Notes under the pieces: generated by a model
The model's database searches: none
What the model was told of the DNA's origin: nothing
Seen by the model: the letters and a program-made list of their open reading frames with translations, nothing else
Made by a program: the position numbers and the translations under genes
Shown here: piece by piece, positions 10,130 through 28,435 of the stretch
How the letters are laid out: each line of letters opens with the position of its first letter
Numbering within the stretch: the first letter of the stretch is position 1
IMG/VR virus record: IMGVR_UViG_3300020378_000034
Coordinates: 1-28,435 of that record
DNA length: 28,435 bases
Strand: one strand, 5' to 3'
Origin: a virus

Positions 10130-10454
10130 ATCTTAACTCCTCTAAGTCGCATTCTAGTTCTTCTTTCTCATTGTCGAAGTCCCTTTTCTTTTCTTCGAAG
10201 GGTTCAACTAAATCGTAAATTGCAGATTCCAATTTGTTTACACACTCACGGACTTCTTTGATTTTCCATTCCAAGTCTTCCATGTTAATACCGTTTTCTT
10301 CTGCAAGATTTTCTACTGCCATGTAGATATTACTAGGAACATCATTATACTTGATTTCCTTAGTTTTGTCATTGACCTTTCCAATAACCAAATCCATATC
10401 CCAAGATTTGTTATCTAACTCGTCAATCTTTTTATTCATTTCATTTATATTCAT
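10119..10454 (-). CDS. Coiled-coil protein, unknown
   Basis: 111 residues, highly charged. The N-terminus ([20 protein letters not shown]) and the C-terminal half ([20 protein letters not shown] then [20 protein letters not shown]) have heptad-like spacing, so a coiled coil is likely. No function is suggested. It has a strong Shine-Dalgarno (GGAGG) inside the end of the upstream gene and overlaps it as ATGA. Confidence 0.6.
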
Positions 10455-11002
10455 GCGGCCTCCTTGCCTTTAATATAATCCATTACATCTTTATCGTTGT
10501 TAAATTTCGCACCACACTTCATAGTGTAAGTTGGTGAATACTTGGTTATCTTACCAGTCTTGTCATGTAACCATGTCTTCTGAATAGACTTTATGTTGTA
10601 GTTCATGTATCCATACTCACCTTCGTTGTCCTCGAACTTACTGGTAATAAAACCAGTACCAATAATCTTAATGTAAGTTGGTGATTCCCACTCTGTTAGA
10701 TAGAGTTTCAATGATTCAGTATCATCAAAAAGTTCTTTAGAAATAACATACTCCTCTGAACCTTCATTAGAATAAGTAGTAATAGGTTCCACCATTTTAA
10801 TGATTTCATCAAAAGTAGGGCCTTCTGTATCATAGAGATTTACATTTTCTATGACATATTGAGAACCACCCTTGAACTTCCAATATGGTTCGTCAACACC
10901 ATGTTTATAATCCTCATTGTGAGCTGCATAGTTCTCACGATACTGAGTTGTGATTAAAACTGAAACGTTTGACTCGTTTTCTTTACCATATTTTGTTAAC
11001 AT
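10451..11002 (-). CDS. Unknown early-type protein
   Basis: 183 residues. It includes 'VSVLITTQYRENYAAHNEDY' then KHGVDEPYWKFKGGSQYVIE, and later YGYMNYNIKSIQKTWLHDKT and SPTYTMKCGAKF. I have a sense of similar hypothetical proteins in other phages but know no function. It is the first gene after the early promoter at 11033-11062 and has a clear Shine-Dalgarno (TTGGAG, 6 bases before ATG), so it is probably made early in infection. No signal peptide or membrane segment. Confidence 0.6.
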   Translation of the reverse strand: MLTKYGKENESNVSVLITTQYRENYAAHNEDYKHGVDEPYWKFKGGSQYVIENVNLYDTEGPTFDEIIKMVEPITTYSNEGSEEYVISKELFDDTESLKLYLTEWESPTYIKIIGTGFITSKFEDNEGEYGYMNYNIKSIQKTWLHDKTGKITKYSPTYTMKCGAKFNNDKDVMDYIKGKEAA

Positions 11003-11069: not shown

Positions 11070-11408
11070 TTATATAAGATAATCAGGCCCGTACTTTCTC
11101 ATTCCATGGATTGCATATCCCTTGAAGAGATTGCCCCTTGGAGCATTTAATGCTGGGGTTGCCCAACCAGCTGCTTTGAGAACATCACCTTCTTTGAAAG
11201 TGATACCAGTATTTCCTTTTTGAAATTCGAAACGATTAATGAAACCCCAAACAGAACGTTGGTTTCCACTATTCATGATAATTTTAATGTACTTACGAGC
11301 AACTTTGTAAGTGTAAGAATACTCCGTAAGATTCGGGTATTGTTTTAAATGTTCAGACAGTAAGTCGTCACAAAGGTTTTGACATAGTTCATTAAGTTCT
11401 TTTTTCAT
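11070..11408 (-). CDS. Unknown early-type protein
   Basis: 112 residues from the ATG at 11408, chosen because a strong Shine-Dalgarno (GAGGAG) sits 8 bases before it. Another ATG lies 6 codons upstream (11426) without one. The sequence has 'YKVARKYIKIIMNSGNQRSV' then WGFINRFEFQKGNTGITFKE and a glycine-rich end (NLFKGYAIHGMRKYGPDYLI). It looks like a compact alpha/beta protein, perhaps DNA- or RNA-binding from its charge, but no family is recognised. Confidence 0.6.
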   Translation of the reverse strand: MKKELNELCQNLCDDLLSEHLKQYPNLTEYSYTYKVARKYIKIIMNSGNQRSVWGFINRFEFQKGNTGITFKEGDVLKAAGWATPALNAPRGNLFKGYAIHGMRKYGPDYLI

Positions 11409-11432
11409 AGATTTCTCCTCATTCATATTATA

Positions 11433-24464: not shown

Positions 24465-24551
24465 TTATTTAATTCTCATGTCATACCACATAATGGCAAT
24501 AATTAACATACTCACGGTAATAAAACCTAACCAAATCAACGGTTCAATCAT
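24465..24551 (-). CDS. 28-aa membrane peptide
   Basis: ATG at 24549-24551, stop TAA at 24465-24467: MIEPLIWLGFITVSMLIIAI then MWYDMRIK, a single transmembrane helix with a charged end. It starts in an ATGA overlap with the stop of the 109-aa gene and ends 1 base before the next gene. The exact fit between two genes supports it. Confidence 0.5.
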   Translation of the reverse strand: MIEPLIWLGFITVSMLIIAIMWYDMRIK

Positions 24552-24877
24552 CTTCCTATATCCTTAATACATTTCTTGGGAATCACCTGATACGCACCTT
24601 TATTATATGCAGGTGCAACAGTATATTGTTTACTTATCTCTTTCTTATACGAATCGTCCTCTCTGACTCCCGTAGAACGATTCTGAGACACGTTTGACAC
24701 ATACGAGGGGTAACGTTCCCTATGTGCATTCATTTCGTCTATACGGTCTTTTATGTGCGACTCAACCCGTAGAGACTCCGTACGACACTTACGGGGTGCA
24801 GATTTCTTTCTCCACGCATTCGTCTTACGTTTCTTGCCACTGTAAGAATGAGTCATAGAACCATAAAACATACCCAT
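24548..24877 (-). CDS. Basic 109-aa protein, unknown
   Basis: 109 residues rich in Arg, Lys and Ser: MGMFYGSMTHSYSGKKRKTN, then AWRKKSAPRKCRTESLRVES and HRERYPSYVSNVSQNRSTGV. It would bind nucleic acid or be a small virion protein by charge, but has no recognised domain. Its ATG shares a base with the stop of the 64-aa gene. The opening with two ATGs (MGMF) leaves the exact start open by two codons. Confidence 0.55.
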   Translation of the reverse strand: MGMFYGSMTHSYSGKKRKTNAWRKKSAPRKCRTESLRVESHIKDRIDEMNAHRERYPSYVSNVSQNRSTGVREDDSYKKEISKQYTVAPAYNKGAYQVIPKKCIKDIGR

Positions 24878-25071
24878 TAGGTTAACCTCTCAGTGTCTGT
24901 TTCAATAATAGGTGAATCATAGTACATAGGTTCTTCGTCCTGACCCACCTCTTCCAGCCATATTGCGAATAACATAATAGTTATCCACATAATCATATGA
25001 AATGGTATAAAGAACTCACTAGAGGAACTCCAAGGTTTTTCGTCCAGTATCCTTTTTAGTATTTTACGCAT
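24877..25071 (-). CDS. 64-aa single-pass membrane protein
   Basis: MRKILKRILDEKPWSSSSEF, then FIPFHMIMWITIMLFAIWLE as one membrane helix and an acidic tail. No family recognised. A GGGG stretch 8 bases before the ATG may serve as ribosome site. A possible 11-codon ORF ends over its start (ATGCGTAA). Confidence 0.55.
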   Translation of the reverse strand: MRKILKRILDEKPWSSSSEFFIPFHMIMWITIMLFAIWLEEVGQDEEPMYYDSPIIETDTERLT

Positions 25072-25375
25072 ATTTGCCCCGAAAAAAATTTTTAATCATA
25101 ATAATATAAATCTCCAATAACTTTTAGGGTGGGGGTCTAGGTCATTCTCAAAAGACCATAGGAGTCCCATAATACTGTTTTTCGCAGTCCCTAAAAGGGG
25201 TGGGCGGTCTTCTCATTCCGCCCTGCTGATTGTCGGCATCAGAGCCCTAGAGTCTTAATGTTTTTATCAGAAAACTCACACGATTCCTCAATGGTATCAA
25301 TCATGCAATCCACGGTCTTATACTCTAGTCAATCCCAGTGAATACTTCTATTATATCATAGGTGGGTCTGTCCGT
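25072..25375 (-). other. 304-base leader region: promoter plus a chain of tiny ORFs, no clear gene
   Basis: Between the 64-aa and 75-aa genes. Downstream of the promoter at 25350 the minus strand holds small ORFs in a row: 21 codons (MIDTIEESCEFSDKNIKTLG), 8 codons (MPTISRAE) and 22 codons (MRRPPTPFRDCEKQYYGTPM), whose junctions are TGATG and ATGA, then 11 codons (MIKNFFRGKYA) whose stop overlaps the next ATG. The junctions look coupled, but the peptides show no family. A leader RNA is equally possible. Confidence 0.35.
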
Positions 25376-25378
25376 CTA
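25350..25378 (-). promoter_or_regulatory. Sigma70-like promoter (TAGACG-N17-TATAAT)
   Basis: Minus strand: TAGACG (25373-25378), 17 bases, TATAATAG. Same -35, -10 and spacing as the promoter at 13947. It overlaps the stop of the 75-aa gene and would start the operon of small membrane proteins. Confidence 0.55.
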
Positions 25379-25603
25379 GTGGAAAACCCTATCCTTTCCA
25401 TTCACTACTATGCAATCAATGTTTATATTCCCTCTTGGGTCTATGAAACCATTACTCACGCATATATCACACACGCAATCCCACGCCCAGTTCAGGTCAA
25501 CGTCCTTATTGAGTGCGAGTTGCATTTGTTTACTGTTGAATGGTATAGAGATAGGACTCCCGTCACTGACAAGACTCCCACGAATTCCATTTACAATTCT
25601 CAT
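25376..25603 (-). CDS. 75-aa early-type protein, unknown
   Basis: MRIVNGIRGSLVSDGSPISI, then PFNSKQMQLALNKDVDLNWA, WDCVCDICVSNGFIDPRGNI and a final strand. CxxCxxC-like cysteines (CVCDIC) may bind metal. It has an early promoter directly upstream (25613-25642), which supports the minus-strand reading. A plus-strand open frame across the same bases is a shadow. No function known. Confidence 0.55.
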   Translation of the reverse strand: MRIVNGIRGSLVSDGSPISIPFNSKQMQLALNKDVDLNWAWDCVCDICVSNGFIDPRGNINIDCIVVNGKDRVFH

Positions 25604-25612
25604 TATGCAGCT

Positions 25613-25642
25613 AGCTTACCATAAAACTGGGGGCATTGTCAA
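25613..25642 (-). promoter_or_regulatory. Early sigma70 promoter of the GCTTGACAATG type
   Basis: Minus strand: TTGACA (25637-25642) in GCTTGACAATG, 18-base spacer, TAAGCT (25613-25618). The -10 is weak, but the -35 context and spacing match the promoters at 11033 and 25976. It leads to the 75-aa gene. Confidence 0.6.
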
Positions 25643-25661
25643 GCATTTTCGATACCTCTGA

Positions 25662-25682
25662 AACCCCTTGCCAGCAGGGGTT
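25662..25682. other. GC-rich hairpin AACCCCT / AGGGGTT between divergent promoters
   Basis: A perfect 7-base stem (25662-25668 with 25676-25682) and a 7-base loop. It lies between the minus promoter at 25613 and the plus promoter at 25693. No T-run follows on either strand, so it is not a clear terminator. Confidence 0.5.
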
Positions 25683-25692
25683 GGCGAGGAGC

Positions 25693-25721
25693 TTGACAAC
25701 GCTGACAAAATATGGTATAAT
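25693..25721 (+). promoter_or_regulatory. Perfect sigma70 promoter on the plus strand (first of a tandem pair)
   Basis: TTGACA (25693-25698), exactly 17 bases, TATAAT (25716-25721). Both boxes are perfect. It faces right, against every gene in the window; no plus-strand protein gene follows. Predicted start near 25728. Confidence 0.8.
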
Positions 25722-25748
25722 GGAGGGCTGGGCAAACACTTAGTGCGC

Positions 25749-25777
25749 TTGACAATGGCTCGAAAATATGTTATAAT
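25749..25777 (+). promoter_or_regulatory. Perfect sigma70 promoter on the plus strand (second of a tandem pair)
   Basis: TTGACA (25749-25754), exactly 17 bases, TATAAT (25772-25777). The surrounding sequence resembles the first copy (CTTGACAA...AAAATATG(G)TATAAT...AGGGCT), so the pair arose by duplication. Predicted start near 25784. The transcript would be antisense to the sRNA candidate at 25836-25969. Confidence 0.8.
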
Positions 25778-25835: not shown

Positions 25836-25894
25836 AAAAAAACCCCCCGACTAGGTAGGGTTGCGAACCACTTTCATATATTACCTTCGGGGGG
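25836..25894 (-). terminator. Strong Rho-independent terminator with branched stem
   Basis: Minus strand: CCCCCCGA (25894-25887) pairs with TCGGGGGG (25850-25843), then T7 (25842-25836). Inside, AGGTA pairs with TACCT (25882-25886 with 25853-25857), and a further small hairpin GGTT-GCG-AACC sits within. The GC-rich 8-bp stem followed by seven T is a textbook terminator for leftward transcription. Confidence 0.75.
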
Positions 25895-25969
25895 GTGAAT
25901 CTCTATCGACACATGAGTTAAGCCGTTACGTTATTACCTGAATATTCCTTCTCCTTTATTTCTCATCAT
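25836..25969 (-). ncRNA. Candidate small RNA of about 130 bases (own promoter and terminator)
   Basis: Bounded by the early promoter at 25976-26005 (start near 25969) and the terminator at 25836-25894. The only reading frame inside is about 10 codons (MRNKGEGIFR), so a noncoding RNA or a leader peptide RNA is likely. It is faced by two plus-strand promoters that would make its antisense. Existence is inferred from the paired signals only. Confidence 0.5.
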
Positions 25970-25975
25970 GGGGCT

Positions 25976-26005
25976 AGTATACGAAAAAAGTAGAGTCATT
26001 GTCAA
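25976..26005 (-). promoter_or_regulatory. Early sigma70 promoter (TTGACA-N18-TATACT)
   Basis: Minus strand: GCTTGACAATG with TTGACA at 26000-26005, 18-base spacer containing T6, TATACT at 25976-25981. Same build as the promoter at 11033. It would drive the small RNA candidate. Confidence 0.75.
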
Positions 26006-26013
26006 GCATTATA

Positions 26014-26169
26014 TTACAGACCCACCATAGGAAACACTAGGTGTTCACTACGCATATACACGGGCGCAAACTCCCATCCTATCCACGACTCACTCTCAGG
26101 TATCTGAAATCGCCTCTGAGGGCTTGACTCCCGACTAAAACTCGTGTTTGTATCCCCGAACAACACCAC
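26014..26169 (-). CDS. Candidate 51-aa protein with GTG start, unknown
   Basis: A frame of 51 codons opens at GTG 26167-26169 and ends TAA at 26014-26016: VLFGDTNTSFSRESSPQRRF, then QIPESESWIGWEFAPVYMRS and EHLVFPMVGL. The amino acid mix looks protein-like, but there is no ATG near the start and GAGGG lies too far (about 18 bases) to be a sure ribosome site. It is the only long frame in this gap. It may be real, a remnant, or chance. Confidence 0.3.
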   Translation of the reverse strand: MVLFGDTNTSFSRESSPQRRFQIPESESWIGWEFAPVYMRSEHLVFPMVGL

Positions 26170-26202
26170 CAAATCACGTTTTTTATACCCTCAGATATAT
26201 CT

Positions 26203-26315: not shown

Positions 26316-26474
26316 CTAGTTCTTACACCGATTATGTGCATCTTGTATCTCATCACTTACCTTTGTCTCCCATATACAAGGTATTAACCCATGTATGAAT
26401 AGTATTGCACTCATTCTCCATGCGTGTATGAGGTGGGTAAAATAACCCATATTGATGTCTTTGAGGTGTTGCAT
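26316..26474 (-). CDS. 52-aa conserved protein (DUF6356-like)
   Basis: ATG at 26472-26474, stop TAG at 26316-26318. The sequence MQHLKDINMGYFTHLIHAWR, then MSAILFIHGLIPCIWETKVS and DEIQDAHNRC fits a small family I recall as DUF6356 (pattern ...L..A..LS..L...HG..P..WE..AS..I), common in phages and proteobacteria; function unknown. One hydrophobic helix. An alternative start is Met9 (26450). A TCTAAATA box lies 6 bases before the ATG. It follows the 2OG oxygenase gene by 9 bases. Confidence 0.65.
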   Translation of the reverse strand: MQHLKDINMGYFTHLIHAWRMSAILFIHGLIPCIWETKVSDEIQDAHNRCKN

Positions 26475-26480
26475 ATAGTG

Positions 26481-26488
26481 TATTTAGA
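26481..26488 (-). promoter_or_regulatory. Possible late promoter box TCTAAATA, 6 bases before an ATG
   Basis: Minus strand: TCTAAATA CACTAT ATG. A weaker match (6 of 8) than the others, with a 6-base rather than 5-base gap, but in the same position relative to the start. It overlaps the oxygenase stop codon. Confidence 0.4.
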
Positions 26489-27236
26489 ATACATTCTCTT
26501 GAAACGTGTCTTTTTCATCAGGATATTGTTTCTCGTATATATCTTTCAGTTTCTTCATATCATTATCAGTAACCCTACCGTGGCCGTGTAAGTGTCTAGG
26601 ATATTCGTGTTGTTCTCTTCTAAGTCTATCGGACGAGCGTTGTGAGTCTCTACGAATATGCAGGAATCTTTTAGTGTCTTCTGTATAGTGTGGGTCTTCT
26701 TCCCATATATCAAATGCAAGTGATATGCGTGGCGTGGTGTGTATGTTCCGTTTGACGTGGTGTCTATGTTCACGTCCGACTATGTGTAGTGTACCTCTAG
26801 TGTTTTGTTGTTTACCGTCTTCCCAATGCGTATAAGAGGGGTCGGCGCCGTCAAGGTATATACTACACGCATATATTTTTCTATTGGGGTCTTCGGGATA
26901 TTCATGTGCGTGTTCTTTTATTTCTTGTCCTTGGTGGAGTACATTTCCCCAACATTGCACCCATAATTCGTCATACCAGTTGTCTTTTCTTGGTTCAAAC
27001 AATGGTAAATTAAATATTCTATCGGGTATATTCAGTATGCGTATGTCGGGGTGAGTAAGGAAATTATAGACGTTAAATTGATGTGTCAGTCCTGTATAAA
27101 TGGTCTTGGGATATGAATTGGGTATTCCTAGTATCTTGGATTCGTCTCGTCTGAGGATAGATGCGACAAAGAGAGATTCCTCTTCCGTGAGAAACCCCTC
27201 ATATTCAACGTGTCCTTTTCGGTCTAGAGAAACCAT
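26484..27236 (-). CDS. 2-oxoglutarate/Fe(II)-dependent oxygenase-like protein
   Basis: 250 residues. The double-stranded beta-helix part runs from 'LWVQCWGNVLHQGQEIKEHA' with HAH (His109, His111) as the metal-binding HxH/HxE site, through IYACSIYLDGADPSYTHWED, GTLHIVGREHRHHVKRN with the distal His160, to TTPRISLAFDIWEE, where Arg170 would bind 2-oxoglutarate. This layout is common in the 2OG-FeII_Oxy_5 type oxygenases of marine T4-like phages, whose substrates are unknown. The C-terminal 70 residues are charged and His/Arg-rich. It overlaps the upstream gene by 13 bases. Confidence 0.7.
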   Translation of the reverse strand: MVSLDRKGHVEYEGFLTEEESLFVASILRRDESKILGIPNSYPKTIYTGLTHQFNVYNFLTHPDIRILNIPDRIFNLPLFEPRKDNWYDELWVQCWGNVLHQGQEIKEHAHEYPEDPNRKIYACSIYLDGADPSYTHWEDGKQQNTRGTLHIVGREHRHHVKRNIHTTPRISLAFDIWEEDPHYTEDTKRFLHIRRDSQRSSDRLRREQHEYPRHLHGHGRVTDNDMKKLKDIYEKQYPDEKDTFQENVF

Positions 27237-28072
27237 AATCGTGCATACATATCCGTTTTAGGGTCATCGTCTCCCTCTAGATATATGAATCGCACTTGTG
27301 GTGTTACGTCTCTCCATTCGTGACCGTATGAGAATAATGCAGCTTCCATCTCTTCTTCCATAGGTGGATACCATTCTTGTGGGAAGTAAGGTCTGATTTT
27401 CTCCTCATATTGTTGTACGAGGTCTTCATTCTTCTCTTGATTGTTTAGATAATACGGTGAGAATTGTGCAAGTTTGGTGGGTAACACGACTCCTTTAAAG
27501 TTATCTTCTACAAACTTCCAAGGATTAGCATATGTACTTGGGTCTTTATCTGCGAGGTCTGATATGTCTTTACCTATCCAACCAAAGAACCATTCACCTT
27601 TGTATTGTGTTTCTCCCTCGTCATTCCACCATGCCATTGGCATTTCAACGAAGGGTAATTCTTTATTTTGTACCGTTTCCATGGTTGCAACGTCCATTCC
27701 ATGTCCTGCAGGTAATTCGTTAACGTGTCCTTTGAGAGGGATATTACCTAGGATTGCACTTTGACATAAGTCCAGTGGAATAAGTTTTGGACTGAGTAAG
27801 ACATTCTTTTCGAACAATGGTTCTGATTGATAAGGTGGTGATTTGAACAGTTGTAGGAACTGCCAGTCCTCTGTAGGATATTCTCCTTCATAAGGTATAG
27901 GTGTTATTGAATCCAATAATCCTTCAGGTTCTTCTGTAAGACAAAAGAATTTGACCTTATTAAAATCTTTAGAGACAATATCGATTCGATATTTGAGTAG
28001 TCTTACGAAAGACTCGTTGATAACTTCTGAAGAAACTCCTTTCTTCTTGTGCATAATAATATTTGTTGCCAT
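27224..28072 (-). CDS. 282-aa protein, unknown
   Basis: MATNIIMHKKKGVSSEVINE, then 'LKYRIDIVSKDFNKVKFFCL' (an NAD- or sugar-nucleotide-enzyme-like strand-turn-helix), NIPLKGHVNELPAGHGMDVA, 'MPMAWWNDEGETQYKGEWFF' and YPPMEEEMEAALFSYGHEWR. Rich in Trp, Pro and acidic residues. I do not recognise the family. It has a normal ribosome site (AGGAAT) and an ACTAAATA late box about 24 bases upstream, and precedes the 2OG oxygenase in the same unit, so both are likely late or virion-linked. Confidence 0.55.
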   Translation of the reverse strand: MATNIIMHKKKGVSSEVINESFVRLLKYRIDIVSKDFNKVKFFCLTEEPEGLLDSITPIPYEGEYPTEDWQFLQLFKSPPYQSEPLFEKNVLLSPKLIPLDLCQSAILGNIPLKGHVNELPAGHGMDVATMETVQNKELPFVEMPMAWWNDEGETQYKGEWFFGWIGKDISDLADKDPSTYANPWKFVEDNFKGVVLPTKLAQFSPYYLNNQEKNEDLVQQYEEKIRPYFPQEWYPPMEEEMEAALFSYGHEWRDVTPQVRFIYLEGDDDPKTDMYARLWFL

Positions 28073-28380: not shown

Positions 28381-28435
28381 TGGTGGAGCTGATAGGAATC
28401 GAACCTACGACCTACTGGATGCAAACCAGTCGCTC
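28381..28435 (-). tRNA. tRNA-Ala (TGC), 5' part outside the window
   Basis: The minus strand gives the anticodon arm ACTGG-TTTGCAT-CCAGT with anticodon TGC, the T arm GTAGG-TTCGATT-CCTAT, acceptor strand CAGCTCC, discriminator A and encoded CCA. The variable loop and arms fit a normal tRNA. The D arm and 5' acceptor strand lie beyond the right edge. Phage tRNAs often serve codons used more by the phage than by the host. Confidence 0.85.

Follow-up and report, generated by a model that had tools for sequence, protein, structure and literature searches.

A predicted early transcription unit without a protein gene, next to a candidate RNA family, in an uncultured marine T4-like phage

The DNA analyzed here, termed the window, is the whole of a 28.4-kb record (28,435 nucleotides) of an uncultured virus (IMG/VR record IMGVR_UViG_3300020378_000034). 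Nearly all of its genes are carried on the minus strand, and their products include a single-strand DNA-binding protein of the gp32 type, together with baseplate-hub and tail-tube proteins. The closest named relative of the gp32-type protein was that of Methylophilales phage Melnitz (55%), followed by those of Synechococcus and Pelagibacter T4-like phages. The window derives from an uncultured marine phage of the T4-like kind; lytic phages of this kind rank among the most common viruses in the sea. Named phages were searched with the window DNA and, separately, with the DNA of the region described below and with its small early gene, and no match was obtained for any of these; protein queries from the neighboring genes returned no viral or genome contigs. 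Syntenic sister contigs were identified by means of flanking genes and a conserved RNA, RNA-1, described below, the best being a contig (L247) whose flanking-gene proteins matched at 58% (27224-28072 and 26484-27236) and 54% (24548-24877). A 52-amino-acid ORF at 26316-26474 (minus strand) is conserved in L245 (72% DNA identity over 130 bp) and L239, where it occupies another position in the gene order. A partial tRNA gene, truncated by the end of the record, is present on the minus strand at 28384-28435 (Rfam tRNA, 39.4 bits).

The unit under study and its neighboring elements are as follows.

26105-26172, strand not assigned: conserved block common to L247 (91% over 70 bp)
25976-26005, minus strand: sigma-70-type early promoter, with TTGACA from 26005, an 18-nucleotide spacer and TATACT ending at 25976; 11 of 12 consensus positions; member of the CTTGACAATG cassette family of the window and its relatives
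25946-25969, minus strand: 5′ leader ATGATGAGAAATAAAGGAGAAGGA with a Shine-Dalgarno site; its match to L189 and L007 stops at the start codon
25836-25969, minus strand: predicted untranslated RNA of 134 nucleotides, from the positions of the promoter (predicted 5′ end, 25969) and terminator and the lack of an ORF preceded by a Shine-Dalgarno site
25836-25896, minus strand: intrinsic terminator, a CCCCCC..GGGGGG hairpin followed by TTTTTTT (located at 25842); −21.3 kcal/mol, top in the window
25747-25777, plus strand: opposing early promoter 2; 12 of 12 consensus positions, TG-extended
25691-25721, plus strand: opposing early promoter 1, TTGACA-17-TATAAT; 12 of 12 consensus positions, TG-extended
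25613-25645, minus strand: next early promoter, TTGACA-18-TAAGCT, driving ORF 25376-25603
25376-25603, minus strand: small early gene of 75 amino acids ending in RVFH; sister-contig homologues 29 to 50% identical

Neither opposing promoter is followed by a gene on the plus strand within the window, and the transcript of opposing promoter 2 would be antisense to the unit. Plus-strand genes follow in the sister contigs in the region of these tandem promoters (25691-25777). Several other sequence features were observed. The block of about 68 bp at 26105-26172 adjoins repeats of AGTGTGTAATTATATT, and similar sequence was seen by eye in G027, L274, L284 and L330. A hairpin, CCTCTGAAACCC..GGGTTTC.GAGG, at 25655-25690 (plus strand) recurs immediately upstream of early promoters, with other copies in L284 (4790-4825), L274 (4680-4715) and L247 (4280-4315); it resembles the stem-loop portion of PeSL-like elements (see below). 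The word GGGACTCCTA(G/T)GGT followed by a TTTTTTTTCGGGG tract, at 25155-25180 on the minus strand ahead of ORF 24877-25071, is common to G027, L274 and L247.

An earlier note on this DNA had described a minus-strand promoter followed about 130 bases later by a branched GC hairpin and seven T residues, with no real ORF between them. The promoter and the hairpin with its T tract were found as described, although the hairpin is not branched but a single long imperfect stem (8 bp, 5 bp and a small apical stem), and the interval contained no ORF of at least 25 amino acids with a Shine-Dalgarno start. The automated listing of promoters and genes required a Shine-Dalgarno site before an ORF, and leaderless ORFs were judged by eye. 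Six near-consensus promoters were present in the window, whereas 72 dinucleotide shuffles contained 0.8 on average and never more than 3. When terminator-like hairpins were ranked across the window, that of the unit stood out as first, and the next two scored −17.7. An equally strong terminator occurred anywhere in 2 of 72 shuffled windows; taken alone, this terminator is only moderately improbable by chance, and its coupling to a near-consensus promoter 130 nucleotides upstream is not due to chance. Early cassettes elsewhere in this phage have no terminators. This layout makes it plausible that the unit is a self-contained early transcription unit producing an independent early RNA of, by prediction, about 134 nucleotides.

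Sensitive blastn searches of the fetched loci detected matches to the unit in L189 (85% identity over 66 nucleotides) and L007 (80% over 69 nucleotides), with weaker matches in L038, L046 and L244. All of these were confined to the promoter and leader and ended at the start codon of the relatives; at the junction of the alignment the relatives read AAAGGAGAA-AATATG and the window reads AAAGGAGAAGGAATATTC. The early cassettes of four sister contigs (L189, L007, L038 and L046) share with the unit the promoter, a T-rich spacer and the ATGATGARAAATAAAGGAGA leader but differ in that a start codon and a gene of 70 to 180 amino acids follow and no strong terminator lies at the end. Two window genes (11070-11426 and 10451-11002) are driven by the same type of cassette. 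The L189 cassette most similar to that of the unit drives a gene whose product shares 75% identity with that of 11070-11426, a gene that sits behind a different cassette in the window, indicating that cassettes and genes have recombined. By homology, the promoter, 5′ leader and AAGGAG of the unit form the usual early-gene cassette of the phage group and are not specific to a small RNA, and AAGGAGAAGGA is the Shine-Dalgarno site of that cassette. The earlier suggestion that AAGGAGAAGGA could bind the anti-Shine-Dalgarno sequence was correct as to the presence of the sequence, but the site has this simpler cause, as in the early protein genes of the relatives.

A survey of 400 CTTGACA promoters, drawn from 327 loci that include many from unrelated phages, found no other member of the phage group with a promoter, a short gene-less stretch and a strong terminator. 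Pattern scans of viral contigs showed CTTGACAATG promoters to be common across many phages, while a narrower promoter-leader pattern scanned in viral contigs gave nothing. Two other phage contigs, at L164 1467 and L165 4765 (both minus strand), have a CTTGACAATG promoter, 183 nucleotides without an ORF preceded by a Shine-Dalgarno site and a strong terminator with different stems, a possible small RNA gene.

Relatives of the interior of the unit were sought in the fetched loci, by sensitive blastn, and in phage records, and none was found; hence, the covariance analysis proposed by the earlier note had no covariation to work on in the loci and records searched. The other proposed check, folding of 25836-25969, gave a z score of +0.64 relative to shuffles, so that the whole RNA folds no better than these, and only the terminator is structured within it. 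Complementarity of the predicted RNA to gene starts in the window was at chance level, with 112 of 200 shuffled RNAs as good. A search of Rfam with the window and the region gave no relevant match, and at the gathering score the unit belongs to no known family, and models of RNA-1 and RNA-2 (R1 and R2, respectively; see below) did not match at the unit. The layout of the unit is that of a small RNA gene, with its own promoter, no ORF and a defined 3′ end, in a phage with unterminated cassettes elsewhere, and to this extent the earlier proposal of an independent RNA gene is plausible; however, conservation, folding and targets all failed to lend it support, and the status of the unit as a functional small RNA is unsupported.

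The slot occupied by the unit lies immediately ahead of the small early gene at 25376-25603 and varies in content by lineage. It holds a promoter and a noncoding stretch, RNA-2, in five contigs (L327, L328, L330, L338 and L339), a promoter and a protein gene in three (L336, L337 and L341) and neither RNA-2 nor a protein gene in G027, L274 and L284; this comparison lacked very close relatives of the window, so that decay or loss could not appear in it. RNA-2 is a nearly invariant, early-promoter-driven noncoding stretch of about 100 nucleotides with two hairpins, one of which exhibits one compensatory pair change. Copies are located at L327 860-963 (minus strand), L328 9524-9627 (plus strand), L330 7150-7253 (minus strand) and L339 5825-5928 (plus strand). 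RNA-2 resembles the unit in its slot, promoter type, AUGAUGA start and absence of a gene but differs in having its own interior, two other hairpins and no T-tract terminator. Homology of the unit to RNA-2 was considered on the basis of one 19-nucleotide local match (shuffle P = 0.08) and rejected.

A second RNA, RNA-1, lies about 500 nucleotides downstream of the unit on the same strand. Its elements in the window are as follows.

25350-25378, minus strand: RNA-1 promoter, TAGACG-17-TATAAT, overlapping the end of ORF 25376-25603
25200-25343, minus strand: RNA-1, a conserved structured RNA directly after the small early gene
25328-25323 with 25252-25247, minus strand: helix P1
25242-25238 with 25230-25226, minus strand: helix P2, loop GCCGACA
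25223-25218 with 25207-25202, minus strand: helix P3, loop AATGAGAAGA

The −10 element of the RNA-1 promoter is conserved at the same position in relatives. The R1 model, built from three contigs, recovered G045 at 42.9 bits and matched all 19 loci of a pattern scan, which belong to uncultured marine T4-like phages and represent six distinct sequences. Changes on both sides with retention of pairing were observed in 8 of 16 pairs, compared with 0 to 4 in slid controls, and RNA-1 was 99 to 100% identical within one sister group in which the adjoining gene was 85 to 90% identical. The top R1 match across the 28 kb of the window was the syntenic site (25336-25240; 15.9 bits, E value of 0.037 with filters off). 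All three helices and the CCGA and AUGAGAA loops are present at 25343-25200, after the RVFH gene; any such arrangement of helices and loops occurred in only 1 of 200 shuffled windows, and the three-helix arrangement was not found in the unit. Three double changes (ACUGAG/CUCAGU to CUAGAG/CUCUAG) separate P1 of the window from that of the relatives, and the window copy has about 40 extra nucleotides within P1. No match to RNA-1 was detected in Rfam, and no relevant match was detected in named phages, the best (E value of 0.6) being in a tail gene. From its sequence and structure, RNA-1 is a stronger candidate for an RNA gene than the unit and is a candidate for a previously unreported RNA family.

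The best explanation for the unit, to which we attach about even confidence, is an early cassette that has no gene and ends in a terminator, with the RNA as a by-product and the terminator acting mainly in cis. Soon after infection, host RNA polymerase would transcribe a standard early cassette, consisting of a promoter, an A-rich 5′ leader and a Shine-Dalgarno site with no protein gene behind it; the product would be a short untranslated RNA, which the intrinsic terminator would end about 134 nucleotides after the start. The terminator would halt polymerase ahead of the strong opposing promoters (25693 and 25749) and would also shield the next early cassette, at 25642, from read-in, a cis role that we infer from the layout. 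The RNA would be the by-product of a cassette whose gene was lost or never received, in a slot where early genes, like early noncoding RNAs, are swapped between lineages. Against this explanation, an old relic would not be expected to retain an intact Shine-Dalgarno site and a clean terminator.

A tentative alternative is that the unit encodes a functional trans-acting small RNA of about 134 nucleotides, which would act early by pairing with host or phage mRNAs or by using its purine-rich 5′ end to titrate ribosomes or an RNA-binding protein. Such a role is consistent with a promoter of its own, the absence of an ORF and a strong terminator, as well as with the proximity of the early RNA-1, and the conserved RNA-2 found in the same slot in five sister contigs raises the chance that the RNA of the unit is functional too. 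Opposed to this are the interior without a homologue, a fold and a best duplex with gene starts that shuffled sequences equal, and a Shine-Dalgarno site accounted for by the cassette. A doubtful, if conceivable, reading treats the region as a locus for early RNAs: lineages of uncultured marine T4-like phages would swap whole noncoding RNA genes (that of the unit and RNA-2) in one slot, beside the strongly conserved RNA-1, via promoter-leader cassettes in the manner of protein genes, and the unit would be a lineage-specific functional early RNA.

Attenuation is improbable. Ribosomes on the MKVVRNPT frame, or a factor, would open the hairpin and permit read-through to ORF 25376-25603 and RNA-1; an SD-like GAAGG does lie six bases before the ATG of this frame (25878), and its stop codon lies within the inner stem, on the 3′ side, but the gene downstream is driven by a promoter of its own and the peptide has only eight residues, no regulatory codons and no homologue, with none in the relatives. 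There is similarly little probability that a gene was removed by assembly error or recent deletion: the unit is seen in a single metagenome contig and the match ends precisely at the start codon, but the flanking order agrees with that of the sister contigs and the terminator is complete and well formed. A micro-protein gene, encoding leaderless MMRNKGEGIFR (25969-25934) or some other very short frame, is very unlikely, for although an ATG is present at the predicted start site and other small early genes of the region begin at the transcript start, the frame is not conserved and the leader of the relatives is broken by stops or leads to a real start codon.

To our knowledge, few noncoding RNAs of lytic T4-like phages have been characterized. 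The unit, interpreted as a gene-less cassette, illustrates how a phage can carry an early cassette that lacks a gene, and it offers a short RNA that can be tested. Alone it is a modest finding; RNA-1, being more conserved than its adjoining gene, with compensatory changes and no counterpart in Rfam, and RNA-2 make the region worth specialist attention and are concrete targets for learning how early phage RNAs affect the host.

The unit resembles phage-encoded small regulatory RNAs (PMC12197685) in being a short untranslated RNA with an intrinsic terminator but differs in that the RNA is a prediction, with no target found among the gene starts of the window and no conservation found in the loci and records searched. 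Promoter early stem-loops (PeSLs) of T4-like phages are described as composite early promoter-terminator motifs mediating gene shuffling (PMC4503421, which cites as its references 36 and 37 Arbiol 2010 and Comeau 2014). As far as that description goes, the unit resembles them in combining an intergenic early host-type promoter and a stem-loop terminator within a small-gene shuffling region of a T4-like phage, and its promoter-leader part recurs at multiple sites; it differs in enclosing 130 gene-less nucleotides and in a terminator that occurs once and is not repeated with the promoter. Compared through this citing description, PeSLs are the closest published kind; their repeated composite form is not demonstrable for the unit, but the unit fits their list of parts.
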